64,000 nucleotides of DNA, taken from assembly GCA_015061745.1 (NCBI GenBank), contig SUWB01000009.1, positions 1 through 64,000 on the forward strand, in the 5' to 3' direction. The stretch comes from Lentisphaerota bacterium. Its GTDB lineage: Bacteria; Verrucomicrobiota; Lentisphaeria; Victivallales; Victivallaceae. Shown piece by piece: positions 2,512 through 63,085 of the stretch (position 1 is its first letter; every line of letters begins with the position of its first letter). A program made the translations under genes and the position numbers. The notes below the pieces were generated by a model that was given only the letters and a program-made list of their open reading frames with translations, was not told the DNA's origin and did not search any database.

Positions 2512-3702
2512 TCAGAAGCGTAAAGTCCCGACAAAATAGCTGTAAAAACTTTGAACTCTTCCATTAGTGAACATATTACGCTTTCCCTTGAGCGGTACCG
2601 GCGACAACGCTTCGACGTGTCCATCTGCAAACAGAAAGTGGGCACGTTTGTTGTGCCGTGCCTGCGGATGGGCATATTTACCGTCAAATGCGCCGTTCCA
2701 CAGACGGGTACTTTCGGCGGTCTTGTATGTGGTGCTGTAACTGTCGGCAGCAATAAAAAACTGACTTGGCCGATATTCATTGCCTTCAGCATCTCTGAAC
2801 CGGCCGGTTTTGAAAACAGCAGCAGCATAATATGCATCCGGCCCCCCGGCTTGGGCGATACCGTATGCGTAACGTCCGAGGATCTCAGGTTTTACTTCCT
2901 GTGCCGGGCAGAGAAAAACTTTAGGCGTCAGAGTATGACTGCGCCGGGTGGAATCTGTTTTGATCTGACTCCAGGTCGGACCGCCCACATAACCGGAATA
3001 ACGGCTGTATCCGGAAGTTTGCCAACCTTCAGCAAGATTCCCCTGATTGTGGAAATAAAAACCGTTACTGTCATCACCGTACATAAAGATCGCCCGTGAA
3101 AGCTGAGTAACATTGGAAAGACACTGGCTCTCTCTGGCTCTTTCCCGTGCCTGCTGCAAGGCGGGCAAAAGCATTGCAGCCAAGATGGCGATGATGGCAA
3201 TAACGACCAAAAGTTCAATCAGCGTGAACGCTGATTGAGTGAAGATGTGAAGGTGTGAAGAGCATTTTTGACCGTTGTCAAAAATGCGTGAAGTGCGCCC
3301 TTGCGGGCGTAAGGATGTGTCGTTTTTATAAATTATTTTGAGGTAATAAAACGGCAAAACCCTAACTTTACAAGCAGCACTCACCAGAAGTTCTATCAAG
3401 GTGAAAGGAGTCGGGTAAGGAAGGGAGCCCTTTTTGAAAAAAGCTCCTCCCTTCCTTCCCCGAACCCCATCCATCCTTGCCAAAAACTTTTGGTGGATTG
3501 CCGTTTTTGCATTTGCAAAACCGACAATCCCGCATTTGGCAGAATTGCAATGACAAATATTAAGGCAAGGGGCAATTTTTCGCAAAGCATAAACACATAT
3601 TTGACAAGTTTTGCTTACAAGAAGTTCAATCTGCGTAAACGCTGATCGGGTGAAAATGTGAACGCACGAGGTACGTCCTGCCGGAGTGGCAAATTTTTTC
3701 AT
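2512..3702 (-). CDS. H-x9-DG pseudopilin with two inserted in-frame modules
   Basis: Type II secretion/type IV pilin-like pseudopilin, 396 residues. The functional-looking signal is the last FTLIELLV (Phe about residue 159) followed by a hydrophobic helix ([17 protein letters not shown]), as in GspG-like pseudopilins. The C terminus has the H-x9-DG motif ([16 protein letters not shown]). Unusually, two further copies of the motif (one as FTQIELLV) precede it, each beginning an inserted module: a 234-bp module at 3406-3639 and a 177-bp module at 3229-3405. The ATG at 3702 has an AGGG site about 10 nt upstream, so the modules are probably translated. Residues before the first module ([13 protein letters not shown]) look like the worn tail of a third module. 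The gene sits 36 bp after the DUF4838 gene. Confidence 0.85.
3229..3405 (-). repeat. 177-bp in-frame module, family 2 (copy A)
   Basis: Unit of 59 codons between the second and third FTLIELLV blocks. It contains a perfect 11-bp hairpin (GCATTTTTGAC/GTCAAAAATGC) and a CGCCC-TTGC-GGGCG hairpin. It differs from the copy at 21250-21426 by two bases in the roughly 150 bp between motifs, and both differences change the amino acid. Its downstream end forms a perfect palindrome with the codons of the next FTLIE (3215-3238). Confidence 0.85.
3406..3639 (-). repeat. 234-bp in-frame module, family 1 (copy A)
   Basis: Unit from one FTLIELLV codon block to the next, 78 codons long and open throughout. 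It holds two inverted repeats, one around the GATTGYCGGTTTTGC arm and one around a GGAAGGAAGGG arm. This is the most diverged of the four family 1 copies ([12 protein letters not shown] in place of [12 protein letters not shown]). Several of its differences fall in both arms of the long stem and leave it largely paired. Confidence 0.85.
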
Positions 3703-6998: not shown

Positions 6999-8174
6999 AT
7001 GAAAAACTGCTTCAGCCCCAAAATCGTTCTTGACAATACTTCAAGGCTGCCTTTGCAAGAGCAGATCGCAGAGGCATTCAGGAAGCATATTGCCCGTTTC
7101 CGGCCGGAAGCGGGAACGCGGATCATCTCGGAACACGCTCTTTCCAAAGAGCTTGAGATCCACCGGAAAACAGTTCATCAGGCATACGAAATTCTTGTTG
7201 CCGAAGAATTTTTCAGTTACTCAGCCACACGAGGTGTTGAAATATCCGCCAAAGCAAAACTGCTTTGCCGCAAACCTTTTCCCTCTATCGCTTTTGTAAT
7301 GCCCTACACTATGACAGAACAGCTTGAACACTTCGGACGCTGGGGATATGAATTGTTTGCAGGTGTCATCGACCGGGCGGCAGAATTGGGCATAGCAGTA
7401 AGTATCCTTGCCCTGCCTTCATCAAAGCTGAGCGATGAAGAACTGGAACTCTGGCTGGAAAATTCCGTTATGCGTAACATCGGTATCATCGACCTGGGGC
7501 CGCGCCCGGAAGACGATGCCGCGGTAATAAAAAAATTGCTGCAAGCCCCTTTGCCCCACGTTTTGATCGCTTCAGAAAGTACATTCCCCGGTATCAGCAC
7601 GTTGCGGGCAGATTATGAAGGGGCTTATGAGTGTATGATAAAGCATCTGGTAAAATTGAAACACAAACACATCGTCTGCCTGGACAGACCGCCCAGCAAA
7701 AACATCTTTTTTGCAGATACTGCCTACCTCAGAACCCGGATCGCCGGAAAAATTGCTGCAAGATATGGAATTGTCAGCACTTCTCTGGTCATACAAAAGA
7801 AGAATACTGGCAATATAAATTTTTCAGCTGTGGCCGACGAGATTCTGAAAATCTCTCCCCGCCCCACTGCAATCATCTGTTCCAATGATGATACGGCACA
7901 CGCAGTTATTGAAGAACTGAAATCAAGAAACTTCACGATACCGGAAGATTTTTCAGTTCTCGGATATGACAGAATCATTCCCGGAATCGCCGGATGTGAT
8001 CACTCCCGGTTGGAATTGGGAAGAAGAGCTGTCGATATGATTTTTGAAATGGACAAAAATTGGAAATTCGGAGAATTTAGAGAAGAATATATACCAAGTG
8101 TTTTTTATGAAGATCTGTCTTCAGGATCTGCATTGACACAGATAAAGAATAAAAAAAAGGAGCTCTCTGTATGA
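6999..8174 (+). CDS. GntR-HTH regulator with LacI-type sensor (AraR-like)
   Basis: Transcription regulator of 391 residues. A winged-helix GntR domain occupies about residues 15-80 ([18 protein letters not shown], then [20 protein letters not shown]). A PBP/LacI-type sugar sensor fills the rest ([26 protein letters not shown] near 325). First gene of cassette II. Its stop overlaps the start of the pseudopilin gene (ATGA at 8171-8174), so the regulator and pseudopilin are translationally coupled. A promoter and a 17-bp palindrome lie directly upstream. The ligand is unknown; it is probably a sugar released by the GH42-like protein encoded two genes downstream. Confidence 0.88.
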
Positions 8175-9196
8175 GTAAGAAATCCACATTGATCCAAATG
8201 CCTGCGGCCTCTTTTTTCCTCAAGATGTGTAACGCCGTAAAAACAAAAACTGCAAAAGAAAAACTGTTTGACGGCACTCCGCATAAAAAGCGTTTTACTC
8301 TGATCGAACTTCTGGTGAGCAAAACCTGGCAAATATGTGTTTATTTTTTGCGAAAAATTGCCTCTTGCCTTAATATTTGCCATTGCAATTCTGCCAAATG
8401 CGGGATTGTCGGTTTTGCAAATGCAAAAACGGCAATCCACCAAAAGTTTTTGGCAAGGATGGATGGGGCCCGGGGAAGGAAGGGAGAACCTTTTTTCAAA
8501 AAGGGTTCCCTTCCTTCCCCGGCTCCTTTCACCTTGATCGAACTTCTGGTTGTTATAGCGATCATCGCTATTCTGGCGGCAATGCTTTTGCCTGCTCTGC
8601 AGCAGGCACGGGCACGGGCCAAGAGTACCCAATGTACCAACCAACTGAAAAATATCGGCCTTGCCGGACAGCAGTATATTACTGACAATCAGGAATATGT
8701 CCCCTTTGGATATACTGAGGGCGGAAACTTCAGAGGATATGCCAGTGCCGGATTGCCCGCCTGGTTCAGCCGGGTCAGCGGCTATCTGGGACACCCGCCC
8801 AAAAATTTCTATCAGCTCAACAGCGGTGAGAAATATATTCTCTATTGTCCCTCTGAAGAAGCCCGGGGACCAAAGTACAACACTTATCTGCCCACGGCCC
8901 AAATGGGACAATATTCTCCTAAAAACGGGATTTTCCAGAATGCCAAGATTTCCGGCGTCAAACGCCCCTCGGGTACGATTTACATTTTTGATGCCAATCA
9001 CAATGACAATTACCGTCTGAATGTTCAAAGTTCTACGGAACCCCGTTTTACAATGCGTCACAGCGGCGGCAGCAACTTTGTTCTGTATGATGCTCACGTT
9101 GCTTTACGCAAATATGCCCAGTTGGCAATGTGGGGGACCCAATACTGGTACACGCCCTTTGATGCTTTTTCGACTGCTCGTGTTTTCGGTCTGTAA
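8171..9196 (+). CDS. H-x9-DG-type pseudopilin with one inserted module
   Basis: Pseudopilin of 341 residues, with a strong AAGGAG site before ATG 8171. The prepilin motif occurs twice: at 8294 (Phe 42, not followed by a transmembrane helix) and at 8528 (Phe 120), which is followed by the hydrophobic helix [21 protein letters not shown]. The two are separated by a family 1 module. The C-terminal motif is H-x9-DA ([17 protein letters not shown]), a slight variant of H-x9-DG. An internal ATG at 8459 would give a 23-residue basic leader ending directly at the functional motif, so a shorter product is possible. It overlaps the regulator gene by 4 bp and ends 12 bp before the 1744-aa secreted protein. 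Confidence 0.87.
8294..8527 (+). repeat. 234-bp in-frame module, family 1 (copy B)
   Basis: Seventy-eight codons from the first FTLIELLV block to the second, with no stop. The first palindrome has a 15-bp stem around a GCAAATGC centre (about 8404-8438). The second is a long stem GGGGAAGGAAGGG...CCCTTCCTTCCCC around a T/A-rich loop (about 8473-8520). The last ~140 bases, which hold both palindromes, are identical to copy D, while the first ~80 bases differ at five positions. Confidence 0.9.
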
Positions 9197-9208: not shown

Positions 9209-12200
9209 ATGAAACAGATATTTTCTGCTCTTTTTATCTGCTGTGCAGCTGCTTTCTGTCTTGAAGGTGCTCCGCTGAAAGTTGCCGCCTACCGTTTCAA
9301 TGCGGCTTATCTCAATAAGGGTTCGTCAGACCCGGGATTTACCAAATTAACAGACGGCAAGAGCGGCAGCAGCGGAGACCGTCTGGTGGTCTGGAATCGG
9401 CCGAAGGCTCCGAAAAAACTGATCAAACTCGACTTTAAATTTGCCTCTCCTGTCAAAATCAAATATGTTGATTTTCATATTTTCCGGGGGCCCCGGAGTT
9501 ACGGCTGGTACAGTATCACCGCTCTGGGCTCTTTGAACGGTGCCCGGATGCCTCTCGGCAAAAAAAGTATCAAACACCCTTACGCCACTCCTGATAAAAA
9601 ATCGAAACAGGAAGTGATCCGTATGGAGATCCCCTATCAGACACCTGTTACTGAAGTTGAATTCACTCTTGAAGGCTCCGGAACATTTCAGGCTTTGAGC
9701 GAAGTGGTCTTTGAGGGATCAGTGATGCCCGTCAAAGCGGTCAAACTGCCCCCCAATCCTTATGAACATCTCGTCAAAAAAGCCACAGGAAAATTTCAGC
9801 TGCGTAAAGATGGTGACGTTGTTGTTCTTGAAAACAGACACGGCCTCTTTGCCATTGATCCCAAACGCAACGGCGGCATCGTTTTTGCCTATGATAAGCT
9901 GAGCAAACACAACTGCATCCCCGGTGAATATGAGGTAGGGGGGGCATTCCTTGACAGATTTCACAGCGGCAGTGCCCAGCGGGATTTCTATCTGGATGTC
10001 AAATATGACTGCAAGGTCGTGGCGGACACCCCGGAACGGAAACAGGTCGTTGTTTCCGGAAAGGGCAAAGGGGGGATCTTTATCAATGTTCTGGTGGAAA
10101 AACTTTATACCCTTGAAAAAGATTCTGCCGTCTTGCGTACTGATTATACCATTACCAATCTTCAGGAAAATGTGGTTGATCTGGAAAGCGGCTACTGGCT
10201 TTTCAACGGATTCCTTTTCCCCGCCGGGGGCGTCAGGCTCATCCCGGGGATCTACGGTGTGGAAAAAATCGATCCTGCCATAAAAGAGTTTTACCACCGG
10301 GAACTTTCCGGTGCCTGGTTCGGCGGCGGCAGCAAAGAATGCGGTACCGCATTTATTTTTCCTTATGAGTTCTTCCGTGAAGTCTATTTCTGGGGTTCAA
10401 GTCCCCGCCACGGCACGGCAGAATGTAAATTAGGTGTCTATCCTGTCAAAGCCGGGAGCAGTCTCAACTTTTCCACATATCTTGCTCCCTATTCCAATGT
10501 AGGATTTCCGGACAAAGTCAGCCGTTATGCTGCGGCCTCCTTTGATCTTGAAAAAGAGTACAAAACCGCCCCTGCACAAATCCTTTTCCGCAGCAGGCTC
10601 CTTACTCCCGGCAATTATACGCTTAAAATTTCCGGCGGTATCGCTTCCAACGACGGGAAAGTCAAGTTCCGTGAATTGAAAAGCGTTTCAGTGAAAGGGA
10701 AAGAGCTTTTTTCACTGACCTTTGCCAATCCTTTCAAAAAAGGGACTGCCGTTTTCAAAGCCGAACTGTTTTCAGGGAATACCAGACTCTTTTTTACGGA
10801 AAAACAATCTGTTTTCAAAGAATCAAGCAGCGTTTATATGCTCACCCGGGACGGCATTATCAAGCCTGACTTGCAAACACGCCGGAATAAGCTGAATTTG
10901 AATTTCAACACCTCCACAGTCGGACTGCCTGCATTTGACTTTGTCCGGAAATATGCGGGCGGCACCCCGAAAGTTCTTGCGGTCAACGAAAGAAGCGGCG
11001 GTATCCGCGATATGGTGGAAATTGCCCGCCGTTTCGATATGAAACTGACCACCAATTACATCAACGGCATCTGGGCTTTGAGCAATCATTTCACTTCACT
11101 TACTGAAAAACGCTGTATCAATGAACTCACCCAGGTTTTACGGCAGGAATTTGACTGTATGATTTTTTCTGCCAATGTGTGGCACTTATTCAGCGAGGCT
11201 CTCAAAAAAGCGATTATGGCAAAGGTGGAAAAAGGAACGGGCTTGATCCTGATTGCACCCTTGAATTTTCCTGAAGAGCTGAAGAAAAATATCGTTTCCA
11301 CCTATACCCCGCCGAAACGCAAAGTTTTGATGCTCAATCAGAAACCGCCCCGGAAATTCAAATGGCGATCTGCCGGCGAATCCGCATTGATCTCCGGGAT
11401 CCCCGTGGATCATCTGCCGCCTACGCCTGTAATGCCTTATAAGACAACAAATGTCAAAAATCACATTATGGCAGGGAACAATCCGCTGCTGAGTGAATTT
11501 TCTTACGGCAAAGGCAAAGTGTTCCTCTGCACCTGGCAGGTGGAAGCTCCCTCTGACAATAAACCCAGCGGGTTCTTTCTGCCCCTGAACAATATTGCTC
11601 CTCCGTCAGAAACCTGGAAATATTACGAATACCAGATTTCACTTATGGGTAAATTGATCTATGCATCTTCAAGGAAATCCGACACGATGCCTCAGGGCAA
11701 AGCCGCAGCAGTTGTGAAAAACGGAACAATCAATGCCGCTCTGGAGCTGGAATCTCCCAAAGATGCCGATATCACAGTTGCGTGGATCTTACGCAACAAA
11801 TTTTCTGACACCTGGCATATGCTCAATCAAAAATGCCGGATGAAAGCCGGAAAAAACCGTTTTACCGCCGCACTGCCCGGACCTGCTATGGAGGGAGTGA
11901 ACTTTGTGGATATCCGGGTATTCAATGCTGCCGGAGCCGTCCTCTGGTGGGGCTGTGCTCCGGTTGAATTCCGCGGTACAGCCAAATTCACCAAAGTGAT
12001 ATGCGACACAAACAAAGTCTACAAGGAAAAAGAGAAAGTCCTCTGCTCCGTCATTGCTTCGGGAAAAGGAAAAACCATTGTTGAACTGTGGGACAATAAC
12101 GGCAACCTCTGTGAAAAACTTTCCGGTGACAAGGTGGCTCTGCCCCTTGACAAATGTCGCACCAAAGCGGCAAGGATCATCTTCCGCCGTATGGACGGTA

Positions 12201-14443
12201 AAAAAGAGCTTGACCGTGCTGTCCGCAAGATCCAGATCTACGGCAATATCCCCTCCGGCACCTATACTGTGATGCAGGGGTGGCCCTCATTGAGCCGGAA
12301 CGCTCATATCTGGAACTATGACCTCTATCTTTCCCAGCTCAAAAAAATGGGTATCAACAAAGCCGGCGGCGCCAAAAGCTACGGGGATTTCCCCAGTGCT
12401 GAACGGGCGTTCCGTGAAAATGACATTCTTCACGGCGGCGTTTATTCCTCTATGTGGACCGGTGGGAAATTCCCCTACAAGGCAGGCGAGAAAGCCAAAT
12501 TTTCTCTGATCCGCCGCCCCTGTTTGAGTTCCCCAGAGTATAAGCAATACTTGAATACTCCTGCTCAGAGAAACTTCGGTCCCACCTATAAACTGGGGGC
12601 TATTGATGTTATGGGGGCAGATGAATCCAACTCCATTGTCAACTGGGACGGCTGTTTCTCCATTCACTGTCAACAGGAATTCCGCAACTTCCTCAAAAAA
12701 GAGTACAAATCCCTTGAGGCTTTGAACAAAAGCTGGAAAACCTCTTTCGCCAAGTGGGACGACGTGATCGCCTCTACGGCAGAAGAAGCACGCAAGATGA
12801 AATCCTTTGCCTCCTGGCTGGATCACCGTACCTTCAATGACCGTAATCTGGCAAACGCTCTTGCCAGACTTGTGAAAAATCTGAAAGCTGCCGATCCCCG
12901 GCTGATCTATTCCCTTTCAGGGACACAAAACACCAATCCCTGGAACGCCTGGGACCATTATCTGATGACTCCCAGCCTTGAATCCTTGAACTCTTACTCC
13001 GGTGAACAGACCGTCCAGCAGCGTTGTTTCGCCAAAGGACGCTTTACCAACTGTCCCTGGGACGGATACGACAAGCCGTGGGAAATTTCAAGTTACCTCG
13101 GCATCAAAACTTTGATGGACGGCTGTTCCGGAGTGGCCTTTTATGGTAATTTCACCATTGATCCGGCCTACAACATCGCTCCCGGAGGCGAAAGGCTGAT
13201 CAAAGCATATTCACCGTGGACCAACGGTACGGCTGAAGCGGTTATGCGCAGCTCTTTCAAAGCCTCGCCTGTGGCGTTCCATTATACGCCGGCTTCTATC
13301 AAAGCCGACTGGTTTATCGGCCTCGACAAGATGCGGCAGCTCAGTACCGACGGATTCAGGCTGCTGCAGCAGGATTCATTTTTACCCTACGATTATGTGG
13401 CTTACGGTCAAATGGAAAAAGAGGGGATCCCCGCCAGATACAAAGTTATGGTATTGCCTCTTTCTGCTGCAATGTCTGATAAAGAGATCGCTGCCGCAGC
13501 AGAGTTTGTCCGCAAGGGCGGCACCCTTGTGGCAGATCTGATGCCGGGATTTTACGATCAGCACGGAGCCGTCAGAGAAAACACAGCCAAACTCTACGAA
13601 CTTTTCGGTATGAAAAAAATGGGTAAGGCCCGGGAGTGTCCTTACCCCCTCATCTGGCAGACGGGCCGTTTCAAGATCGATTATGCCGACTTTGAAGCTC
13701 GACCCGGCAGTGCCAGATCTTACGGCAGAATCAACGGAAAACCGGCCTTCTTTGTCAATCGTTTCGGCAAAGGGAAAACCGTCTATATGGGCTGTTCTCT
13801 TACCTCGTCTTTCGGTGACTGGGATGCAATGCGCTATTCACCGGGAACTGTCAGGGAAGCAAAACTGCTCCACGCATTCTGGTCTGAGCTTCTGGCAGAA
13901 CAAAAAATCTTTTCAGAAGTTCAAATTTCCGGTATAACTGATCCCCAGATCGTCTGCCGTACCATTGCCAACGGTATGCTTCTGGCTGTTATACGCAATC
14001 CCAGAGGGGCTGCGCCTCTGCCTCGGGAAAAGCAGATCGCCAATATCAAATTAAGGAAAAAATACCACATTTACGATACGGTCAACAAAAAATATCTCGG
14101 GTACCGCGCTTCCTTCCAATATGAATTTTTGCAGCACACTCAAGCCCTTTTCACACTCCTGCCCTACAAGGTGGAAAAGGTACTCTGCAATGTGGAACGC
14201 TCCGGAAGAAAAACTGTTATGAAAATAACTCTTGCAGCTGAGAGTTCAAATTTCAGTGACCACACTTTCAGAGTGGATGTCTTTGATAACAGCGGCAAAA
14301 AGAATCCTTCGTACTCCACCGTCATACACGGCTCAGGAAATCGGGGACAATTTGAATTCCAGATGCCGTTGAATAAGGGAAAAGTACGGAACGCCGTAAT
14401 AACGGAACTCCTTACAGGGGTACAGTGTTCTGTCAACTTCTGA
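9209..14443 (+). CDS. Very large secreted GH42-like glycosidase
   Basis: Secreted protein of 1744 residues with a signal peptide (MKQIFSALFICCAAAFCLEG). A discoidin-like region (about 25-175) and beta-rich domains precede a GATase-like domain (about 600-800). A GH42-like TIM barrel spans about 1000-1330: GADESNS near 1138 carries a candidate acid/base Glu, and CFSIHCQQEFRNFLKKEY followed by LNKSWKTSF is the GH42 signature context. NSYSGEQ near 1265 is a candidate nucleophile. A beta-galactosidase trimerisation-like domain (KYKVMVLPLSAAMSDKEI, about 1410-1550) follows. The likely role is exo-hydrolysis of beta-galactosides or related linkages outside the cytoplasm. An AAAAGGA site precedes the ATG, and the gene ends at a bidirectional terminator. 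Confidence 0.8.
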   Translation: MKQIFSALFICCAAAFCLEGAPLKVAAYRFNAAYLNKGSSDPGFTKLTDGKSGSSGDRLVVWNRPKAPKKLIKLDFKFASPVKIKYVDFHIFRGPRSYGWYSITALGSLNGARMPLGKKSIKHPYATPDKKSKQEVIRMEIPYQTPVTEVEFTLEGSGTFQALSEVVFEGSVMPVKAVKLPPNPYEHLVKKATGKFQLRKDGDVVVLENRHGLFAIDPKRNGGIVFAYDKLSKHNCIPGEYEVGGAFLDRFHSGSAQRDFYLDVKYDCKVVADTPERKQVVVSGKGKGGIFINVLVEKLYTLEKDSAVLRTDYTITNLQENVVDLESGYWLFNGFLFPAGGVRLIPGIYGVEKIDPAIKEFYHRELSGAWFGGGSKECGTAFIFPYEFFREVYFWGSSPRHGTAECKLGVYPVKAGSSLNFSTYLAPYSNVGFPDKVSRYAAASFDLEKEYKTAPAQILFRSRLLTPGNYTLKISGGIASNDGKVKFRELKSVSVKGKELFSLTFANPFKKGTAVFKAELFSGNTRLFFTEKQSVFKESSSVYMLTRDGIIKPDLQTRRNKLNLNFNTSTVGLPAFDFVRKYAGGTPKVLAVNERSGGIRDMVEIARRFDMKLTTNYINGIWALSNHFTSLTEKRCINELTQVLRQEFDCMIFSANVWHLFSEALKKAIMAKVEKGTGLILIAPLNFPEELKKNIVSTYTPPKRKVLMLNQKPPRKFKWRSAGESALISGIPVDHLPPTPVMPYKTTNVKNHIMAGNNPLLSEFSYGKGKVFLCTWQVEAPSDNKPSGFFLPLNNIAPPSETWKYYEYQISLMGKLIYASSRKSDTMPQGKAAAVVKNGTINAALELESPKDADITVAWILRNKFSDTWHMLNQKCRMKAGKNRFTAALPGPAMEGVNFVDIRVFNAAGAVLWWGCAPVEFRGTAKFTKVICDTNKVYKEKEKVLCSVIASGKGKTIVELWDNNGNLCEKLSGDKVALPLDKCRTKAARIIFRRMDGKKELDRAVRKIQIYGNIPSGTYTVMQGWPSLSRNAHIWNYDLYLSQLKKMGINKAGGAKSYGDFPSAERAFRENDILHGGVYSSMWTGGKFPYKAGEKAKFSLIRRPCLSSPEYKQYLNTPAQRNFGPTYKLGAIDVMGADESNSIVNWDGCFSIHCQQEFRNFLKKEYKSLEALNKSWKTSFAKWDDVIASTAEEARKMKSFASWLDHRTFNDRNLANALARLVKNLKAADPRLIYSLSGTQNTNPWNAWDHYLMTPSLESLNSYSGEQTVQQRCFAKGRFTNCPWDGYDKPWEISSYLGIKTLMDGCSGVAFYGNFTIDPAYNIAPGGERLIKAYSPWTNGTAEAVMRSSFKASPVAFHYTPASIKADWFIGLDKMRQLSTDGFRLLQQDSFLPYDYVAYGQMEKEGIPARYKVMVLPLSAAMSDKEIAAAAEFVRKGGTLVADLMPGFYDQHGAVRENTAKLYELFGMKKMGKARECPYPLIWQTGRFKIDYADFEARPGSARSYGRINGKPAFFVNRFGKGKTVYMGCSLTSSFGDWDAMRYSPGTVREAKLLHAFWSELLAEQKIFSEVQISGITDPQIVCRTIANGMLLAVIRNPRGAAPLPREKQIANIKLRKKYHIYDTVNKKYLGYRASFQYEFLQHTQALFTLLPYKVEKVLCNVERSGRKTVMKITLAAESSNFSDHTFRVDVFDNSGKKNPSYSTVIHGSGNRGQFEFQMPLNKGKVRNAVITELLTGVQCSVNF

Positions 14444-17040: not shown

Positions 17041-20000
17041 TCAGCGAATTTCCTTCTCTCTGAGCCCCATATTTCTTTTACGCACTTCAGCATCTGCGGG
17101 GAAAAAATCTTTGAAATCAAGTTCCTGCCAGCTTTTGCCGTCTGCCGTTGCACGGTATTCAATTTGGGTGACATTTTTCGGGAAAGGAGCTTTGTGCAGT
17201 TTGAGTCCTGCCATAACAGGATCTTTGAAAATGTTGGTCTCTTTTGCTACTGGATGTGCTTTCCTGTAATGGGCTATGGGGTGGATCCCGGACCATTTAC
17301 CGTACCAGGTTCCAACAAAGTTACGTTTCTCAGCATCAGTACGAATGTAGAAACAGTTGTTTTCGATCTTCAACCCGGGGTGCACAGGTTCTGCAAAGAA
17401 AATAGAGTTGTGGGGCTTTCCGGCGATAGTGTCACAGACGATATTGTTTTCAATGACCGCTTTGGCTTTTTCTGAAAAACTGCTGAAATGGATCTGATTG
17501 AGTGAATTGAGAGCCAGGACACAGTTTCTCACTCTGATTCCGTCACAGGCAATCAGATGAAACCCCCGAAAGGCATTCATAGAAACACTGTTTTCAAAAA
17601 GAATGTTGTTGCAGAAAACCGCAAAAAGTGCCGTCGGCGAATAGCCCTCAGCCCATCTGCCGTCGATGAAAAGACGTTTCAGTTTGATATCTGAAGAACT
17701 GATGCAATGGATATAGGAGTCGTTTGCGGTAATCACGCCCCTCATTCTGAAGTTGTCGATGGTGATGTTGCGTTTGTGATAAAAACTGATCAAATTCATC
17801 AGTTTCCGTTCGCCGTCAAGCAAGACCTTTTCTCCGGGCATTCCCCTCAAGGTCATATCAGAAACCTTGAACATCAGTTTTTCAAAGTAACGCCCTCCCC
17901 GTACGGTGACAGTATCACCGGGAGAAATGTGGTCAAGGGCATAGGTGATCGTTCTGAAAGGCTTTTCCAAAGTGCCGGGATTCATATCGGATCCGTTGAC
18001 AGCGACAAAGTATTCTCCGGGAGCCTGAGCCTTGACGGGAGTGGTAAAGGCAAGTTCCGCCACCACCTCTCCGGCCTGAGTCGGTTCAATGTTGAGAAAA
18101 CGCGCCTGTTCGCTGTGGGAACCTGAGATGCGGCATATATACCCGGTGCCGGGTTTAAGATCCGTGAGTGTCACATTGCGGAAGCTCTCTCCCCGGATTG
18201 TTTTTTTCATCCAGCGGCCGCCTTTTTTCTCTTTCCAACTGATATGGCAATCTTCTTTGCCTGCGGGCAGATGCCACTGAATTTCCGCACTGTCAGGTGT
18301 GGTACGGTAAACAACAGGATAAAGGATTTTTCCGTCAGGCAGACCGGGCACACGGTTCCAGGGACCGACGGGGAAAGCGTCAAGGGCACGTCCGGCAAAG
18401 GATTGCGCATTTTTCAATGTGAAGTTCCCCTTCTCAGGGGCATTAAAAAGGGCCTTGCAAACAAAGGAACGCTTTTCTCCGGCAGGAACACGGTCAGGGT
18501 AAGCATTGTTATCGCTGTAAATCGAAGCTGATTTTTTTACCGCTTTGGCAAGGATATTGGAAAAAACAGCTCCTGAACTTTGAATTGCGTCCACAGTTCC
18601 TTTAACAAAAGCACAATGGATCACGCGGAAATCTTTTGACTCTCTGAAATTCAAATTTTCTGCAAAAGAACAGTTTTCAAATGTCACGTTGTTTCCCTTG
18701 ACAGCGACAGGAGCGGAAAAATTGACTTTGCGCACTGTCACATTGCTGGTTGTAATGTTCCCTCCCGCAACAAGAGCTTTGGTATAACGGCCTCTTCCGG
18801 CGAGAGTCAAATTTTTTTGAGTGACAACAAGTTTGCCGTATTTTCCGGGCATAAGGTAAACGGTGGAACCGTCAGGAATATTTTTCAAACTCTTCCGGGG
18901 AGCCCGGATGGTGGTTCCGGAATTGGTATCCTTTCCATCAGGAGCAAGAAAATAAACCGTTTTATCATAAGGCAGTCCCCCCTTGAAGGTGCTGTCAGAC
19001 ATAGGACGGCCGTCGAAATTTTCCCAGTCGGCAAGGTTATATTGCATTTTTTCCCTGATGCCCTTCTGAGTCCAGTAGAGACTTGTGGGGTCGTCCTGAG
19101 GTTTCGGGCGGAAAACATTGCCTGCAATAATATTGTTTCTGACAGTGTGGGTGGTGGCATTTTTGAGTGCGACACATTCACGGATGACCGCCCTTTTGTC
19201 CGGTGGTTTGACCTGAAGATCACTGACGCCGTGTCCCCAGGAGACACACTTTTCGATCACACAACCGGGGGTGGCCGCCGCATAAAAACGGATCCCGCTC
19301 AGTCTGGATTTGAAGGTGGTGCACTTTCTGACAATGCAGTTTTCATTTGTTCCGCTTACAAAATAAATATTGGCAGCTGAATCGTCAGCAAGTGAATGAT
19401 TGGCGTATGAAACACAGTTTTCCACCAGAATATTTTTCACCGTATTCCCGGTCAGACCGCATCCGTTGAGAAAGAAACGGCAATTGGTGACCTTCATATT
19501 GGAGCTTTTTCTGAAATAGAGAGATTTCACCGAATAGTAACGGTTCCCCCATTTGATAACGTATGAATCAAAGCCGGTAAAAGTCAAGCCGTCAAAATGC
19601 AGATAGGCACTTTTTCCCAACAGCTGCAAACCGTGTCCCTCCCGGGGATCACCGGTACAGACGGTCATCATATGAGTATCGGGAGCTTTGCCGTCGCTGG
19701 TGACGACGTAAAGTTTTTTCTTTTTGACATCGTGGAACCAGACGGCCCGGTTGTAACGCAGCAATTCAAAGGTCTTGACGGGATCATACCAGCTCAAGGT
19801 ATCACGTTCTTTGACACCGCCGGTCTGTTCATCCCAGGGCAGTTCGTAAATAAAACGTTCCCCGGCACAAAGTTTGAAGCCTTTGACCTCCCGGTCTCCC
19901 CGGATGACGGCCGTTCCCGGAATGGCCGCCCGGATCAGAATGGGCTTTTCCTTTGTCCCGGCAAGGATCAGATCTCCTGCCCCGGCATAGTCTCCCGGGG

Positions 20001-20196
20001 TCAGAGTCAGGATATCTCCCGGCTTCAAAACCGAAAGCCCTTTTTTGAAAGTTGCAAAAGGCTTTTCCCTGCTTCCCGGAAATGAGTCTTTCCCGGAAGG
20101 ACTTACAAAATATTCCCTTCCGCAGAGCTGACAGGTGAAAGCAAAGAGTACCAAACAACTCAAAAAAAGTTTACAAACAGAGAGCTTACTTTTCAT
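17041..20196 (-). CDS. Secreted triple-module parallel beta-helix protein with Fn3 domain
   Basis: Secreted protein of about 1051 residues with a signal peptide. I chose ATG 20196 (GGGAG site 8 nt upstream, signal directly after) over ATG 20214. Three DUF1565/pectate-lyase-like right-handed beta-helix modules each begin with a similar cap: YFVSPSGKDSFPGSREKPF near residue 30, YFLAPDGKDTNSGT near 415, and YFVAVNGSDMNPGTLEKPF near 750. A fibronectin type III-like domain (LTDLKPGTGYICRISG) lies between modules two and three. Helix rungs are marked by repeated N-x-hydrophobic-x-N-C strings. Likely a polysaccharide lyase or glycan-binding protein; catalytic residues are not identifiable. It sits 18 bp after the pseudopilin gene in cassette III. 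Confidence 0.8.
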   Translation of the reverse strand: MKSKLSVCKLFLSCLVLFAFTCQLCGREYFVSPSGKDSFPGSREKPFATFKKGLSVLKPGDILTLTPGDYAGAGDLILAGTKEKPILIRAAIPGTAVIRGDREVKGFKLCAGERFIYELPWDEQTGGVKERDTLSWYDPVKTFELLRYNRAVWFHDVKKKKLYVVTSDGKAPDTHMMTVCTGDPREGHGLQLLGKSAYLHFDGLTFTGFDSYVIKWGNRYYSVKSLYFRKSSNMKVTNCRFFLNGCGLTGNTVKNILVENCVSYANHSLADDSAANIYFVSGTNENCIVRKCTTFKSRLSGIRFYAAATPGCVIEKCVSWGHGVSDLQVKPPDKRAVIRECVALKNATTHTVRNNIIAGNVFRPKPQDDPTSLYWTQKGIREKMQYNLADWENFDGRPMSDSTFKGGLPYDKTVYFLAPDGKDTNSGTTIRAPRKSLKNIPDGSTVYLMPGKYGKLVVTQKNLTLAGRGRYTKALVAGGNITTSNVTVRKVNFSAPVAVKGNNVTFENCSFAENLNFRESKDFRVIHCAFVKGTVDAIQSSGAVFSNILAKAVKKSASIYSDNNAYPDRVPAGEKRSFVCKALFNAPEKGNFTLKNAQSFAGRALDAFPVGPWNRVPGLPDGKILYPVVYRTTPDSAEIQWHLPAGKEDCHISWKEKKGGRWMKKTIRGESFRNVTLTDLKPGTGYICRISGSHSEQARFLNIEPTQAGEVVAELAFTTPVKAQAPGEYFVAVNGSDMNPGTLEKPFRTITYALDHISPGDTVTVRGGRYFEKLMFKVSDMTLRGMPGEKVLLDGERKLMNLISFYHKRNITIDNFRMRGVITANDSYIHCISSSDIKLKRLFIDGRWAEGYSPTALFAVFCNNILFENSVSMNAFRGFHLIACDGIRVRNCVLALNSLNQIHFSSFSEKAKAVIENNIVCDTIAGKPHNSIFFAEPVHPGLKIENNCFYIRTDAEKRNFVGTWYGKWSGIHPIAHYRKAHPVAKETNIFKDPVMAGLKLHKAPFPKNVTQIEYRATADGKSWQELDFKDFFPADAEVRKRNMGLREKEIR

Positions 20197-20214
20197 CACA
20201 CGCTCCCTCACCAT

Positions 20215-21438
20215 TTAATTCCAGGCATCGAAGTCGGCTTCTTTTCCGGGAATAGGCATATAATTGAAAAAGCTGCAATGCCGGGCCTTGCTGCCGATAT
20301 TCCAGGTGGTGGGCATACGGTTTCTCTGACGCAGTTCCACGTGAGCGTCAGAAAAGAGCATAGTGGCTCCCCCATTGCCGCCGTTACCGTGGCGGAATGA
20401 GAAAGCATTGTCCCTCGTTTCACCGGGAAGATTCTGTTCATCCCACCAGAGTGCGGTCGCCCCTGTTGCGTATTCAGCCTCTGCCACAGGGCAGTAGCGG
20501 GAAGGACGGCGGATCATAGAGACATTGACCTTGCGGTTGATAAGATCCAAAGCGGAACTTCCGGCACTGTTCACATTGCGGGTGTAAGCAATACCAAGTC
20601 GACGATCAGAACCGGGAACAGGCTTTGCCGGAAGCTTCGGGCAGGCAAGAGGACTCATATACTCCTCTCCGTTATTCGAGTTGCGGTAGAAAGAAAAAAA
20701 CAATCCGGTTTTAGATGTCCCGTTGCCTACATACTGAGCAAGGTTGCCGCAATCGCCGGTCATATTTCCTGTGCGGATTTGGGTATAGAGCCAACAGTTG
20801 CGTGATGTTCCGCTGCCGCCGCCACCGCTCCACCAGCCGGGATAGAAGCCTTTGTTGTCCTGATGATAAAAGACAAAGGCACTGCCGAGAGTTTTCATAT
20901 TGGCCTGACATTTGACAGCAGCGGCACGGTCCCGGGCCTGCTGCAAGGCGGGCAGCAGCATAGCGGCGAGGATCGCAATGATGGCAATCACAACCAGAAG
21001 TTCTATCAAGGTGAAAGGAGCCGGGGAAGGAAGGGAACCCTTTTTGAAAAAAGGTTCTCCCTTCCTTCCCCGGGCCCCATCCATCCTTGCCAAAAACTTT
21101 TGGTGGATTGCCGTTTTTGCATTTGCAAAACCGACAATCCCGCATTTGGCAGAATTGCAACGGCAAATATCAAGGCAAGAGGCAATTTTTCGCAAAAAAT
21201 AAATAGATATTTGCCAAGTTTTGCTCACCAGCAATTCAATCAGCGTGAACGCTGATTGAGTGAAGATGTGAAGGTGTGAAGAGCATTTTTGACCGCTGTC
21301 AAAAATGCGTGAAGTGCGCCCTTGCGGGCGTAAGGATGTGTCGTTTTTATAAATTGTTTTGAGGTAATAAAACGGCAAAACCCTAACTTTACAAGCAGCA
21401 CTCACCAGCAATTCAATCAGCGTAAAAAAACGTTTCAT
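20215..21438 (-). CDS. H-x9-DG-type pseudopilin with two inserted modules in swapped order
   Basis: Pseudopilin of 407 residues. ATG 21438 has an AGGA site. The prepilin motif occurs three times, with Phe at residues 5, 64 and 142; only the last is followed by [21 protein letters not shown]. The order from the N terminus is family 2 then family 1, the reverse of the gene at 2512-3702. The C-terminal domain has a degenerate H-x9-DG ([20 protein letters not shown], longer spacing, DA). The first motif at residue 5 would already be a normal short-leader prepilin start, showing that the modules were inserted behind the native leader. It follows the GntR gene by 80 bp and precedes the beta-helix gene by 18 bp. 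Confidence 0.87.
21016..21249 (-). repeat. 234-bp in-frame module, family 1 (copy D)
   Basis: Seventy-eight codons between the second and third FTLIELLV blocks. The palindromic half is identical to copy B, while the first third carries changes (QISIYF, CLDICRC). This copy follows a family 2 module directly, sharing one FTLIELLV block with it. Confidence 0.9.
21250..21426 (-). repeat. 177-bp in-frame module, family 2 (copy D)
   Basis: Fifty-nine codons between the first and second FTLIELLV blocks. Nearly identical to the copy at 3229-3405. It carries the GCATTTTTGAC hairpin and ends in a perfect 11-bp-arm palindrome (21236-21259) made together with the following FTLIE codons. Confidence 0.88.
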
Positions 21439-21518
21439 AATTGATTTCCTGAAATTATTATTGTTAAAAAAATTTATGTGTTTTAAAACAGCAAAGGGGC
21501 ATTTGAAATAATTAATTT

Positions 21519-22610
21519 TTACTTCCTTTCAATTTCATATTTTATAACAGAAGTACTTTCACGCACAACCACATCAAAAGGGGAATAGATCACCGGAGGT
21601 AATCCGGCATAATCAGGACTCAGCAGCAGATCGACGGCAAACGCCGCCGCTCTTTTATAATCGAAATCCACCGTTGAAAGCCCCGGTTTCAGCAGACAAT
21701 TGGCAAGACAGCCCACAAATCCCAGCACGGCCACATCATCAGGGATAGCAAGTTCCAACCGCCGCAGCCCCTCATAAGCAAAAGCTGCAATACCATCCGT
21801 ATCGCAGAAAATCGCCGTGGGACGGGGCTCCCTGCCTGAAAAAAGTTTTATCGTCTGTTCGATCATATCGTCGGGATTATTGTTGTCGCAGAAGCCGATA
21901 GAGATTTGTTCCTTTTTCAGCCCCAATTTTTCAAGTTGTTCCACAAACTCTTTTTCGTCTATGCGAAGCCGCTCCTGAACCTTTTGCCAATTCAGAGTGA
22001 GCAAAAAGGCAATACGGCGATGGCCCCGGCGAAGCAAATGTTCAACACCTGCAAGAAAAGCTTTTTTTCTGTCAGGAAACACACAGGGACACTGACAAGC
22101 CGAAGGGGTCTTTTCAAATCCGGCAATATTGAGCATAGGAAGTTTCTGTTCCCGCAAAAGAGCCAGTTCTTCAGGGAAACTGCCGACCCGGGGGCTTTCA
22201 AGAATAATTCCCTTATAACTCTCCCCGAGAGGCAGAATATTTTTCACCATACGGATATTAACGTGATCGCACTCGATCTTCAGCTCCCGGCAACGCTGAA
22301 GCACGCCGGGATAGGTATAATATGTCGTGCGTGTCGAAGGCCAGGGCCCCTCATTGATCTGATCCGCATTGACAAAAAGAATCCTTTTTTCAGTGCTTCC
22401 TGAAAAATCACAAACAAATGTCCCTTTATGAGGCGTCCGCCGGATCAATCCTTCTTTTTGCAGCAGACTCAATGCATTACGGAGGGTCTTTCTTGCCACT
22501 TTCAGTTCAGCGGCAAGTGCAGGCTCTGCCGGCAACCGGCTGCCCGGAAGCAATACCCCCGAAGCGATACGGGAACGGAGCAGTGTATAAATTTCAAGAA
22601 ATCGCGGCAT
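21519..22610 (-). CDS. GntR-HTH regulator with LacI-type sensor
   Basis: Regulator of 363 residues. The GntR winged helix spans about 1-70 ([20 protein letters not shown], then [18 protein letters not shown]). A PBP-like sugar-sensor domain follows, with [19 protein letters not shown] and the DVAVLGFVG strand. First gene of cassette III. An AAGGAG site and a consensus promoter lie just upstream. An imperfect inverted repeat (22612-22624 with 22637-22648) flanks the -10 box and could be its operator. The ligand is unknown, probably a breakdown product released by the beta-helix or DUF4838 proteins of its operon. Confidence 0.88.
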
Positions 22611-22630
22611 ATATTGTTCTCCTTGTTATT

Positions 22631-22659
22631 AAGATAAAGGAAACAATACACTCTGTCAA
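22631..22659 (-). promoter_or_regulatory. Promoter of cassette III
   Basis: On the minus strand TTGACA (22654-22659), 17-bp spacer, TATCTT (22631-22636), about 20 bp before the GntR start codon. Half-sites TATTGTTCTCCTT (22612-22624) and AAGGAAACAATA (22637-22648) flank the -10 as a possible operator. Confidence 0.75.
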
Positions 22660-22681
22660 GGGGGAACAAAACATTTTTCTG

Positions 22682-22719
22682 AAAAAAAAAGCCGCAAAAC
22701 TATTTTTCTGTCTTGCGGC
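22682..22719 (-). terminator. Terminator of the IclR-led operon
   Basis: GCCGCAA/TTGCGGC 7-bp stem (22691-22697 and 22713-22719), followed on the minus strand by a run of T (the A9 at 22682-22690). It lies just after the esterase-like gene. Confidence 0.8.
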
Positions 22720-31682: not shown

Positions 31683-32615
31683 TCACTCAGGAAGCCACAT
31701 CCACTGTCTCACGCTGGTATAATTTGTGTAAGTGTAAAATGCAAAGGGCGATGAAGAAGGACATTTGAAAAAACTAACGTGTCCATCCACCCAGCCGATA
31801 TTCAGACCGTTGTCGTGGCGGGGATAAAAGATTCCTTCAGTATAGGCTTCTGTACCGTTGCTGTACCAGCCGCCGGTAAAATCCCGGTCAGTTGTTTTAA
31901 GATTCATAATATCAGCTATCAGCAATTTTTCCGACGCCCGTTTGATACGGCTGGTCTTAAGCGGCAAAGCTCCGGTGGAGTTTGGCACCATCCAGACGTT
32001 GATGCCGTAAGAGAGCTTGGCGGCGTTCCAGTCCATCTTGTAACGGTGGGACGGACAGGATGCCAACTCTTTTTTGTCAGCGAGCATCCGGTGGGGCCAA
32101 CGGATACCGTAAGTGGTTCCGTCAGATATCTTGTGGGGCGGAAAATAATCCTGATTTTCGGCGGCATACATTTGAAATCCCGTATTGATCTCTTTGAGCT
32201 GAGCGGCACATTTGATCTGCTTGGCTTTATTCCGGGACTTGCTCAACGCCGGCAGCAGCATCGAAGCAAGTATCGCAATAATAGCTATCACGACCAGAAG
32301 TTCGATCAAGGTGAAAGGAGCCGGGGAAGGAAGGGAACCCTTTTTGAAAAAAGGTTCTCCCTTCCTTCCCCGGACCCCATCCATCCTTGCCAAAAACTTT
32401 TGGTGGATTGCCGTTTTTGCATCCGCAAAACCGACAATCCCGCATTTTGAAGAATTGCAACGGCAAGTATTAAGGCAAGAGGCAATTTTTCGCAAGATAT
32501 AAACACATATTTGACAAGCTTTGCTTACCAATAGTTCAATCAGCGTAAAAACTGACTGCGACGCACGATGATGCGGCAGTGCACTGCATTTTATTTTGCG
32601 GAGGGTGTGGTTCAT
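31683..32615 (-). CDS. H-x9-DG pseudopilin with one inserted module
   Basis: Pseudopilin of 310 residues. ATG 32615 has an AAAGGA site. FTLIELLV occurs at residues 23 and 101; only the second is followed by [18 protein letters not shown] family 1 module separates the two. The C-terminal motif is a proper H-x9-DG ([17 protein letters not shown]). The leader before the first motif ([13 protein letters not shown]) comes from DNA with a GCAGTGCACTGC palindrome and might itself derive from another module. It lies 45 bp after LacI and 35 bp before the glycosidase gene. Confidence 0.88.
32316..32549 (-). repeat. 234-bp in-frame module, family 1 (copy E)
   Basis: Seventy-eight codons between the two FTLIELLV blocks. 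Protein changes relative to copy B are scattered ([26 protein letters not shown]). The long GGGGAAGGAAGGG stem is retained and the reading frame is open. Confidence 0.88.
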
Positions 32616-32660
32616 TTTACTTTTTCCTTTCTGTATATTGTTTTGTGAGAGATACTATTA

Positions 32661-33710
32661 TCAATTGGTATTTTCATTATCCTCTGTATTTTCCAGTACA
32701 GGAGGAATTCTTTCCCAGTAAAATCCGAAATCAAAGGGGACGCTGCAGCCGCAGCTTTCCCCGATCCGGAGCGTAACAGGCAGCAGAATTTTCCGGTCAT
32801 TCTTTTTGCCTTCCATTCTGGCCAGCAGCAGTTCCACCGTCCTTTCGGCGAGCTGCCTCAGAGGCAGCACCACTGTTGTCAGGGGAACCGGTGTCATCGT
32901 ACTGGCGGCAAGTCCGTCAAATCCGGTGATAGCGACCTCTCCGGGAACGGAAATACCCGAGTGCTGCAGCAGTCCCATCAAACGCCCGGAAATGTAATCG
33001 TTGGAAGCCATAAAGGCTTGTACTTTTTCATTTTTCACCGCCGACAGGATCTCATTGACAATTTCCGGATTGTGGTGAAACTCCATTGCTTTCAAGGTTA
33101 CACCGGGAATATTGGAATTGCGGATCGTCTGTTCGATGGCAGAATATTTGTCAATATTCTTCTCAACAGTATTGCAGAGAAAAACGAACCGCCGGAGTCC
33201 GTGATCAAGCAGATGTTTACAAAGAAGTTCCCCGCCTTGAAAATCATCAGCAGCCACATCAGGATTTCTCCAGGAAACGCCAAGAGACACTGCCGGCAAC
33301 GGCCACTCTTCCGACAAATTCAATTCAAACCCCAGATAAAATCCGATAAACGCATCAATTCCCAGAGCTTTCATTTCAAGGAGCTTTTCTCTCAATTCCC
33401 CGGGATCACCTGCGGTAACTGTATAGGCGTGAAGATGCCGCTCCTCAAGAATCCTGAGCATAATCCTCAAGATTTCATTCTGCAGTACAGAACACCCCTG
33501 ATTGGTAAAAATGGCAATGGTATTGGTCTTTTTACCCCGGAGATGCCGGGCCGCAGAATTAGGACGGAACCCCAATTCTTTGGCAAGTGCCAATATTGCT
33601 TCACGCTTTTCTGCAGACACCCGGCAATAGCTGCGGTTGTTTAAAACCGCAGACACAACCGGCTGGGTCACGCCCACCTGCCGGGCAATACTTTTCATAG
33701 TAACGCTCAT
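32661..33710 (-). CDS. LacI family transcriptional regulator
   Basis: Repressor of about 349 residues. The HTH (MKSIARQVGVTQPVVSAVLN) starts at residue 5, the hinge has NSAARHLRGKKTNTIAIF, and the sensor domain contains FMASNDYISGRLMGLL and EVAITGFDGLAAS. First gene of cassette IV. I chose ATG 33710 with an AGGTG site; ATG 33698 is an alternative, and GTG 33716 is possible. A promoter at 33722-33750 overlaps a perfect 16-bp palindrome. If that promoter is used, the transcript would start only a few bases before ATG 33710, which argues for a nearly leaderless message or the later start. A second promoter-like pair lies further upstream (33891-33919). Confidence 0.9.
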   Translation of the reverse strand: MSVTMKSIARQVGVTQPVVSAVLNNRSYCRVSAEKREAILALAKELGFRPNSAARHLRGKKTNTIAIFTNQGCSVLQNEILRIMLRILEERHLHAYTVTAGDPGELREKLLEMKALGIDAFIGFYLGFELNLSEEWPLPAVSLGVSWRNPDVAADDFQGGELLCKHLLDHGLRRFVFLCNTVEKNIDKYSAIEQTIRNSNIPGVTLKAMEFHHNPEIVNEILSAVKNEKVQAFMASNDYISGRLMGLLQHSGISVPGEVAITGFDGLAASTMTPVPLTTVVLPLRQLAERTVELLLARMEGKKNDRKILLPVTLRIGESCGCSVPFDFGFYWERIPPVLENTEDNENTN

Positions 33711-33720
33711 TTTCACCTCT

Positions 33721-62494: not shown

Positions 62495-63085
62495 TCAGCA
62501 CAAGCCGGAAAATCCCACAAAGGCCATAGCAAGGATCCCCGCAGTAATCAGCCCGATAGGGATACCTTGAAATGCTTTGGGAGGAGAGGCAAGTTCCAGT
62601 TTTTCCCGCAAACTGGCAAAAAGCAGAAGGGCAATGGCAAAACCGATACCGGAGAAACACCCGAAAATGGTGGCGTCAAGAATACTCCTGTTGGCATTGA
62701 AGTTCAATGTTGCTGCTCCGAGAACAGCACAATTGGTCGTTATAAGAGGCAAATAGATCCCCAAAGCCTGATAAAGCCCCGGAGTCGCCTTTTGCATAAC
62801 GATCTCAATGACCTGAACCAGAGCGGCGATAACAAGAATAAAAACGAGGACCTGCAAAAAGGTCAGATCAATACTTTTGCCCCTCAGCGTGAATTTCAAA
62901 AGATAATTGTAGATACAGGAGGTACAAAAGGAGGCCACTGTCATAACAAAAACAACTGCCCCCGACATTCCCATTGCAGTACTCAGCTGCCGGGAAACAC
63001 CGAGAAAGGGGCAAATCCCCAGAAAACGGGTCAGCACAAAGTTATAAACAAGGGCCGCTCCCACCGTTAATTCAAGATATTTCAT
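62495..63085 (-). CDS. rnfA: Rnf complex subunit RnfA
   Basis: Membrane subunit of 196 residues with six helices. Family motifs are NFVLTRFLGICPFLGVSRQL near the N terminus and GIYLPLITTNCAVLG in the middle. First gene of the operon; AGGAG site 12 nt before the ATG and a consensus promoter upstream. Confidence 0.95.
   Translation of the reverse strand: MKYLELTVGAALVYNFVLTRFLGICPFLGVSRQLSTAMGMSGAVVFVMTVASFCTSCIYNYLLKFTLRGKSIDLTFLQVLVFILVIAALVQVIEIVMQKATPGLYQALGIYLPLITTNCAVLGAATLNFNANRSILDATIFGCFSGIGFAIALLLFASLREKLELASPPKAFQGIPIGLITAGILAMAFVGFSGLC

Follow-up and report, generated by a model that had tools for sequence, protein, structure and literature searches.

Palindromic inserts at the prepilin motif of pseudopilin genes in a Lentisphaerota genome

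Four pseudopilin-type genes and their inserts

The window, that is, the whole 64,000-nt stretch analysed (positions 1 to 64,000 of contig SUWB01000009.1, assembly GCA_015061745.1), contains four pseudopilin-type genes. One is located on the forward strand at 8171..9196 (341 aa, Pfam matches N_methyl and DUF1559), and three lie on the reverse strand at 2512..3702 (396 aa), 20215..21438 (407 aa) and 31683..32615 (310 aa). A reading of the sequence alone had called the hosts pseudopilins, and the NCBIfam model TIGR02532 scored above its cut-off in all four, with the best stretch at the last prepilin motif of each (in the 8171..9196 gene at the downstream motif, residues 120-140). In every open frame the insert lies downstream of the first ATG, and AAGGAG precedes the ATG at 8171. 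A motif scan of the window with a limited pattern revealed no further motif-bearing gene.

Each gene carries a 234-nt module, here termed F1, comprising a left motif and a body. The modules identified by BLAST lie at 8294-8527 (forward strand) and at 3406-3639, 21016-21249 and 32316-32549 (reverse strand), exactly where the sequence-only reading had placed them, and all four are open in the host frame as it had claimed. That reading also described FTLIELLV on both sides. A motif copy does follow all four modules, but the left motif of 3406-3639 is FTQIELLV. Likewise, the claim that two copies share about 140 identical last bases is true of the modules at 8294 and 21016, which show no differences in nt 95-234, five in nt 25-94 and five in the left motif, whereas the five other pairs differ more.

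In the forward-strand module, the left motif copy FTLIELL-GT (8294..8316) is followed by the F1 body (8317..8527, GAGCAAAAC...CGGCTCCT), which by BLAST and the alignment of copies begins at the third Val codon base and extends to the right motif copy, again FTLIELL-GT (8528..8550). Sequence and fold place an inner inverted repeat at 8403..8438 and a 53-nt hairpin at 8470..8522 (GGGGAAGGAAGGG...CCCTTCCTTCCCC). The hairpin noticed beforehand proved to be real: as DNA, the 210-nt body of this copy folds at -57.3 kcal/mol (z -7.9), and none of 200 shuffles folded as well. A search of 8000-9000 against Rfam assigned no family; all 36 matches up to E 1 were under the gathering scores, and nearly all were microRNA-type hairpins.

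Two of the four genes contain a second insert, F2, which measures 177 nt with its motif and whose peptide includes HIFTQSA. By sequence comparison the F2 bodies at 3229..3381 and 21250..21402 (both on the reverse strand) are 99% identical. The order of the inserts is reversed between the two genes, with F1 then F2 in 2512..3702 and F2 then F1 in 20215..21438. The leader before F1 in the former gene (3640-3702) resembles a shortened F2 tail and is perhaps an older, decaying insertion.

Genes of carbohydrate-use type adjoin three of the four pseudopilin genes. A periplasmic-binding-protein-like regulator with a weak GntR match is encoded before the gene at 8171 (region 6999-9196), which is followed by a gene (9209-14443) whose 1744-aa product has matches of GH42 type. 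A LacI regulator lies upstream of the gene at 31683 (31683-33716), and a beta-helix protein of 1057 aa follows the gene at 20215 (17041-21438).

F1 copies at the motif and their boundaries

We compared the 234 bases by BLAST with the genome to which the window belongs (3.10 Mb, 75 contigs, 91.6% complete; referred to as the own genome) and found at least 41 F1 copies, either full or cut by a contig end, a lower bound since scoring covered 40 of 99 first-look candidates. The remaining 41 of the 82 listed matches were opposite-strand palindromic matches overlapping F1 copies, except for one, which fell on the left portion of a different insert (C69:5259). This search did not select for the motif. 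Nevertheless, each of the 41 copies was flanked by the motif on one side or both, always in the same orientation, and was open in its frame (in two, a contig end truncates one side, and the left motif of C30:1946 has decayed past recognition). Matches outside pseudopilin genes or out of frame would have spoken against the sequence-only reading; its proposal of a single conserved signal motif as target was borne out by every copy. Together with one left-truncated and one internally deleted copy from fetched stretches, the genome holds at least 43 distinct F1 copies.

The motif itself occurs 154 times in the genome, compared to zero occurrences of a reversed-pattern control. In the stretches read, among the 100 of these places that were listed, it stands before VVIA in at least 75 genes. 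On contigs C1-C43, at least 38 of 62 pseudopilin genes contain a recognisable element, which is F1 in 29 of them; the figure of 38 is a lower bound, as among the other 24 genes there is at least one insert relic (C16:15264), and several have leaders that end in palindromes. Fetched loci of this genome contained 57 pairs of consecutive motifs within less than 450 nt of each other; 56 of these pairs were separated by a multiple of three, the exception spanning Ns, with no in-frame stop between any of them. The same was true of all 35 distinct motif pairs in loci of relatives, each a multiple of three and free of in-frame stops.

These copies bear on two alternatives. Elements might insert widely, in the manner of Rickettsia palindromic elements (RPE) or MITEs, with selection sparing those in the dispensable pseudopilin leader, a naturally harmless place; the hairpin part of F1 does resemble motif-free palindromes in other genomes. 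Such insertion would, however, be expected to leave neutral intergenic copies, and none of the 41 F1 copies was off the motif (40 of 99 candidates scored). The fixed phase and orientation of the scored copies contradict it as well, and we regard it as highly unlikely. We give almost no credence to the second alternative, the duplication of one long-leader pseudopilin gene or an assembly artefact. Repeats do occur at the ends of several contigs (C8, C22), but copies also lie inside long contigs with differing flanks, and the same arrangement is present in the genomes of other species. Moreover, the host bodies are at most 37% identical to one another, which argues against gene duplication.

To locate the boundaries we used 39 full-length F1 copies; excluded from the 43 were the two cut by contig ends, the left-truncated and the internally deleted one. 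A 41-row alignment retained the latter two, which are the source of most off-consensus bases. As reference served 23 sites without a recognised insert (C10:39785 and C16:15264, each with an insert, were left out). Over motif nt 1-23, summed entropy was 10.5 bits for the 29 left motifs that are intact (15.6 with all 39 included) and 10.4 bits for the insert-free sites, in contrast to 2.9 bits for the 39 right motifs. In the right motifs, the wobble positions nt 3, 6 and 9 are constant in 39/39 and nt 7 in 38/39 copies, while nt 12, 18 and 21 vary; from nt 24 onwards, variation on the right side equals that among other genes. After GT, the next base is A or G in left motifs; in right motifs it is mostly C or T. 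Thus, the left motif is the ordinary target and varies as empty sites do, whereas the near-constant right motif is the element's own.

Copies with similar bodies agreed at left nt 24 and at right nt 12 more often than shuffled copies (p 0.001 each). No agreement beyond shuffling was detected at left nt 1-21, at positions -12 to -1 upstream or at right nt 24-36, and at right nt 21 the value was p 0.17. Taken together with the motif entropy, this pattern indicates that the unit begins with the third Val base and includes the right motif. Against a sharp boundary, such copies also agreed at right nt 39 (p 0.005), 46 (p 0.02), 53 (p 0.016) and 61 (none of 2,000 shuffles as high), a sharing that falls in a ten-residue region of the host.

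Amino-acid changes affected 10 of the 39 left motifs (for example FALIELPV, FSLFTPLV and FDDSAEKH) and none of the right motifs, all of which read FTLIELLV. The downstream copy is therefore the one under selection. Neither terminal inverted repeats nor a target-site duplication gave a signal. For 8317-8550, a comparison of the first 40 nt with the inverted last 40 yielded no better match than shuffled sequence (p 0.94), and as to a target-site duplication, left and right motifs agreed no better than shuffled ones at seven of eight positions, the sole exception being position 18 (p 0.011).

Other families, orthologous genes and recombination

F1 is not alone at this site. Between motif copies we also found F2b (147-159 nt), F3 (105-129 nt, KRSHLCCDRVYG...VKLYS) and F4-like inserts (192-231 nt, ...MLHTAKPCFIRSA), and the site is shared, beyond F1-F4, by elements of ten related species. 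On visual inspection, F2, F3 and F4 each have at their right end an inverted repeat that reaches into the first motif codons, for instance CAATCAGCG-TTCA-CGCTGATTG. With one member per cluster and 60 shuffles, fold z values were -8.1 for F1, -6.8 for the G002-type, -4.7 for F2b and -3.2 for F3. Two F4-like clusters (-1.4, -0.5) and two single inserts (-1.1, -1.7) folded no better than shuffles, so strong folding is established for some of the families only. Several leaders without a listed element (C2:13198, C6:573, C11:34781, C17:32212, C33:81100) end in SPACRQVK or GVKPAG-like sequences. These ends resemble that of F3 (the TTCACCTGC...GCAGGTGAA palindrome in L002) and are perhaps further insert remnants.

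Orthologues of the gene at 20215..21438 form a ladder, being empty in genome G027, occupied by F1 in G012 and by F2 plus F1 in the own genome, with flanks 93-97% identical. In G027 (locus L188) the leader is joined directly to the motif and VVIA, and 1,299 nt aligned to 21404-22687 at 93.5% identity. G012 (L066, L181) has the same leader end followed by an F1 of the same subtype as in the own gene (SKTWQISIY) with a contig break inside it; the two contigs, which we infer to adjoin, match the window at 96.9% over 1,177 nt and 96.0% over 2,486 nt. In the own gene F2 is nested in the motif left of F1, and G013 contains F2 alone in a gene with matching body and different leader.

Further filled and empty pairs are L186 (F3) and L184 (empty), L178 (F3) and L172 (without insert), L161 (F4) and L167 (without), and L160 (F2b) and L168 (empty). 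Two of them speak against mobile elements: the empty motif of L168 looks F2-like, so that this empty site may reflect loss, and the L161/L167 junction is a crossover within the motif, upstream of nt 18. The host at C40:95836 contains F1 in the own genome, whereas its best-matching genes, 64-73% identical to it, are empty in G024, F2-like in G012 and F4-like in both G027 and G013. Site, boundaries and this presence and absence in orthologues support the original suggestion that a palindromic element, mobile or gene-converted, gains entry at the FTLIELLV codons.

Among the 117 distinct variants in the 210-nt body of the 39 copies, 26 were synonymous (30.7 expected) and 91 non-synonymous (83.0 expected), and no variant created a stop (3.3 expected, p 0.018). 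That is, the F1 peptide is not conserved as such, but the frame is kept. We accordingly rejected a selected protein function of the F1 peptide, which shows no synonymous bias and merely misses stops. A related possibility is that the inserts are domesticated leader modules selected for sorting or regulation. Their presence in at least 38 of the 62 pseudopilin genes sampled on C1-C43 and the open frame would suit such a role. Yet the variant counts reveal no protein constraint apart from the missing stops, and orthologues possess different families or none; functional modules are scarcely credible to us.

All four combinations of bases were found in 143 of 435 site pairs, rarer for neighbouring sites than in shuffled data (p 0.002), and we conclude that F1 copies recombine and are mosaics. 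Tandem inserts exist as well, namely an F1 pair on C29 and F2b on C19. These mosaic and tandem copies, the L161/L167 junction within the motif and the failure of our searches to reveal a mover (below) favour the main rival, in which host homologous recombination alone suffices: a motif-flanked insert would loop out or be copied and then recombine with any motif in the genome, with no dedicated enzyme. We consider this a serious rival, although on balance an unlikely one. It predicts right motifs with target-like 5' halves, but among 39 copies a single base fits, nt 7 of C2:48212. In addition, the shared stretch measures only 23 nt with several wobble differences, and the adjoining VVIAIIA codons were not co-transferred, the agreement at nt 39-61 notwithstanding.

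Some F1 copies appear to be decaying. C11:35831 is left-truncated, C40:85335 has an in-frame internal deletion, and the leader at C40:96070 ends in SPTP, like the right end of another F1, which suggests deletions between tandem copies.

Spread, proposed mechanism and known systems

A 26-mer from the F1 left end (up to three mismatches) was detected in 11 of 34 genomes of the genus, including the own genome, and in none of 26 genomes outside it; the control gave none. We read 30 of the 84 left-end places (four from the own genome; C47:24627, C56:20669 and C57:102793 lie outside the set). Many of the remaining own-genome places are F1 copies already counted above. The left flank was present in 29 of the 30, and all 29 had the motif there, 26 of them exactly and one each as FTLIKLLV, FTPIELLV and FTLIELPV.

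F2 matches occurred in 15 of 40 genomes. They reached at least 80 nt in ten only, all of the genus and including the own genome, and measured 24-49 nt in the rest. Within the 30 loci inspected, matches that began at base 1 or 2, spanned at least 144 nt and had a left flank followed the motif in 14 of 14 cases, once as FTLIEPLV. Short partial matches in L226, L227, L228, L236 and L237 lie away from the motif, and L225 has a degenerate STLIELLK. Identity to the own F2 was 98.7% in G016 and 99.3% in G020 and G013, where the hosts are pseudopilin genes whose (unaligned) bodies differ in look. One comparable gene (62495-63085) is 69.8% identical over 596 nt between the own genome and G016. Near-identity of F2 against this yardstick, a thin one of a single gene, favours horizontal spread, and the sequences strongly suggest that the elements spread between species. 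F1 was also found in RGIG5592, a Lentisphaeria bacterium MAG from sheep colon, and, at 62% amino-acid identity, in RGIG5364, likewise a Lentisphaeria bacterium. Phage and plasmid collections gave no F1 match, and viral contigs gave one match of 25 residues.

In our view, F1 and its companion families are probably small, mostly palindromic, non-autonomous mobile elements that land on prepilin-motif DNA. This reading builds on the boundaries, the orientation, the fixed phase, the presence and absence in orthologues, the nesting, the decay of the upstream motif and the several families per site that we established. A unit would consist of the Val third base (RAGCAAAAC... in F1), one or more hairpins and its own motif copy, and would insert directly after FTLIELL-GT. 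With a fixed phase and a stop-free unit whose length is a multiple of three, the gene stays open, and the motif at the unit's end puts an intact copy back in front of the ten host residues. The upstream motif and the insert would become leader, free to decay, and new units could land on either motif, giving rise to nesting. A trans-acting recombinase may read the non-wobble bases of the motif and tolerate wobble, with the folded hairpins as putative recognition structures.

The prepilin peptidase would then take off the added leader. In PMC4471445, leaders are described as 6-26 residues long and Gly-ended in bacteria. Here, Pro precedes the last motif in 36 of 37 F1 genes, and among the 24 genes without a recognised insert end Gly does so in 3. 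With Pro where Gly is canonical, cleavage at this point is not assured, which weighs against mobile elements; judged from these residues, leader processing in the lineage must be relaxed, or the leader would stay.

We searched for candidate movers. Among 60 genomes searched for Y1 transposases, the own draft genome contained no intact one; two remnants of about 35 positions exceeded the Pfam cut-off there (C59:94462-94566, C62:258-359). Of the ten other genomes with the F1 left end, all drafts, four (G002, G017, G028, G031) lacked a Y1 match and six had one each, in G033 as an open frame of 186 aa. Neither a reverse transcriptase, as in group II introns (RVT_1; present in 8 of 33 genus genomes, the own one among the 33), nor an IS110 transposase, as in bridge-RNA elements (PF02371; 1 of the same number), was found in the own genome. 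The tyrosine recombinase model PF00589, run on this genome only, gave four matches, two of them near full length, which are presumably what Xer proteins would give; tyrosine recombinases are located, for instance, at C57:95370 and C33:128960. Thus, searches for these four enzyme types in the 91.6% complete genome did not yield the moving enzyme, and at the 30 left-end loci, several of them cut by contig ends, no long insert of an autonomous relative was seen behind the left end. These negative results, like those on termini and target-site duplication and the weak folding of F4-like inserts, count against mobile elements.

How do these elements compare to known systems? REP elements are extragenic, and TnpA-REP (RAYT) is a Y1 transposase. 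Like REP/REPIN sequences, F1 is a many-copy palindrome that may fold as a single strand; unlike them, it is intragenic, in a genome in which no intact Y1 transposase was found. Integrators at tRNA genes use a conserved gene target that is restored by the element's end, and homing-endonuclease elements use a conserved gene target whose wobble positions are tolerated. The elements described here share with both the conserved gene stretch as target with the tRNA-gene type its restoration by the element end, and with homing endonucleases the latitude at wobble positions. They differ from both in that the target is a peptide motif in at least 75 genes and the unit measures 0.1-0.3 kb, with no enzyme of its own seen.

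MITEs, as described in PMC10969869, are likewise small, multicopy, non-autonomous and hairpin-forming, some with open frames; F1 differs in having neither terminal inverted repeats nor a target-site duplication signal and in its strict coding-motif target. In the same review, RPE are in-frame palindromic DNA in unrelated protein-coding genes. The sequence-only reading had drawn this comparison, which holds for the way of working and not for membership. Shared are short palindromic DNA, in-frame residence in coding genes and several families per genome. By that description RPE differ from the present elements, which occupy one signal motif of one gene class (41/41 F1 copies) in a fixed phase and carry a copy of that motif. 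Because the site rule differs, we do not file them as Rickettsia palindromic elements. Searches of open-licence PMC papers brought up no mention of elements of this kind, either in Lentisphaeria or at the prepilin motif.

Kinship is with coding palindromic selfish DNA, and we keep the reading as something categorically new open. In its full form the latter would posit a guild of elements, unrelated in sequence, that came by convergence to attach at a single protein signal motif: recombination would target a coding motif in dozens of genes per genome, regenerate it, be phase-locked to the genetic code, hide its product in a leader peptide, spread between species and make up much of the pseudopilin leaders of the genus. 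We judge the case for and against this to be evenly balanced. Selfish DNA in frame, such as RPE, must somehow persist within genes, and mobile elements at the prepilin motif, if that is what they are, would display in their anatomy how this can be done: they land ahead of the retained part, bring the motif with them and hold the phase. They would also account for the unusual length of the leaders in these pseudopilins. With dozens of insertions, nested or confined to one species, next to orthologues that are empty, target choice, loss and spread can be measured directly, and a recombinase with a degenerate coding motif as its target, if it exists, would be of unusual interest for its specificity.

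As to the origin of the hairpin, F1 may have captured a widespread palindrome. With at most eight F1-like matches scored per genome, the palindrome matches without the motif at fetched loci of other genomes were partial (about 35-95 nt), and none was a full F1. F1-hairpin-like palindromes (AAAGTTTTTGG...GGGGAAG...CCTTTTTTCAAAAAGG...CTTCCCC) exist in other genomes of the order and in one Clostridia MAG (L116). By the motif pattern applied, the fetched loci of the order (L045-L059, L063, L067-L070, L072) have no prepilin motif, except L067, where it is about 960 nt off. In L051 and L054, mechanical ORFs of 681 and 825 codons, respectively, enclose the palindrome match.
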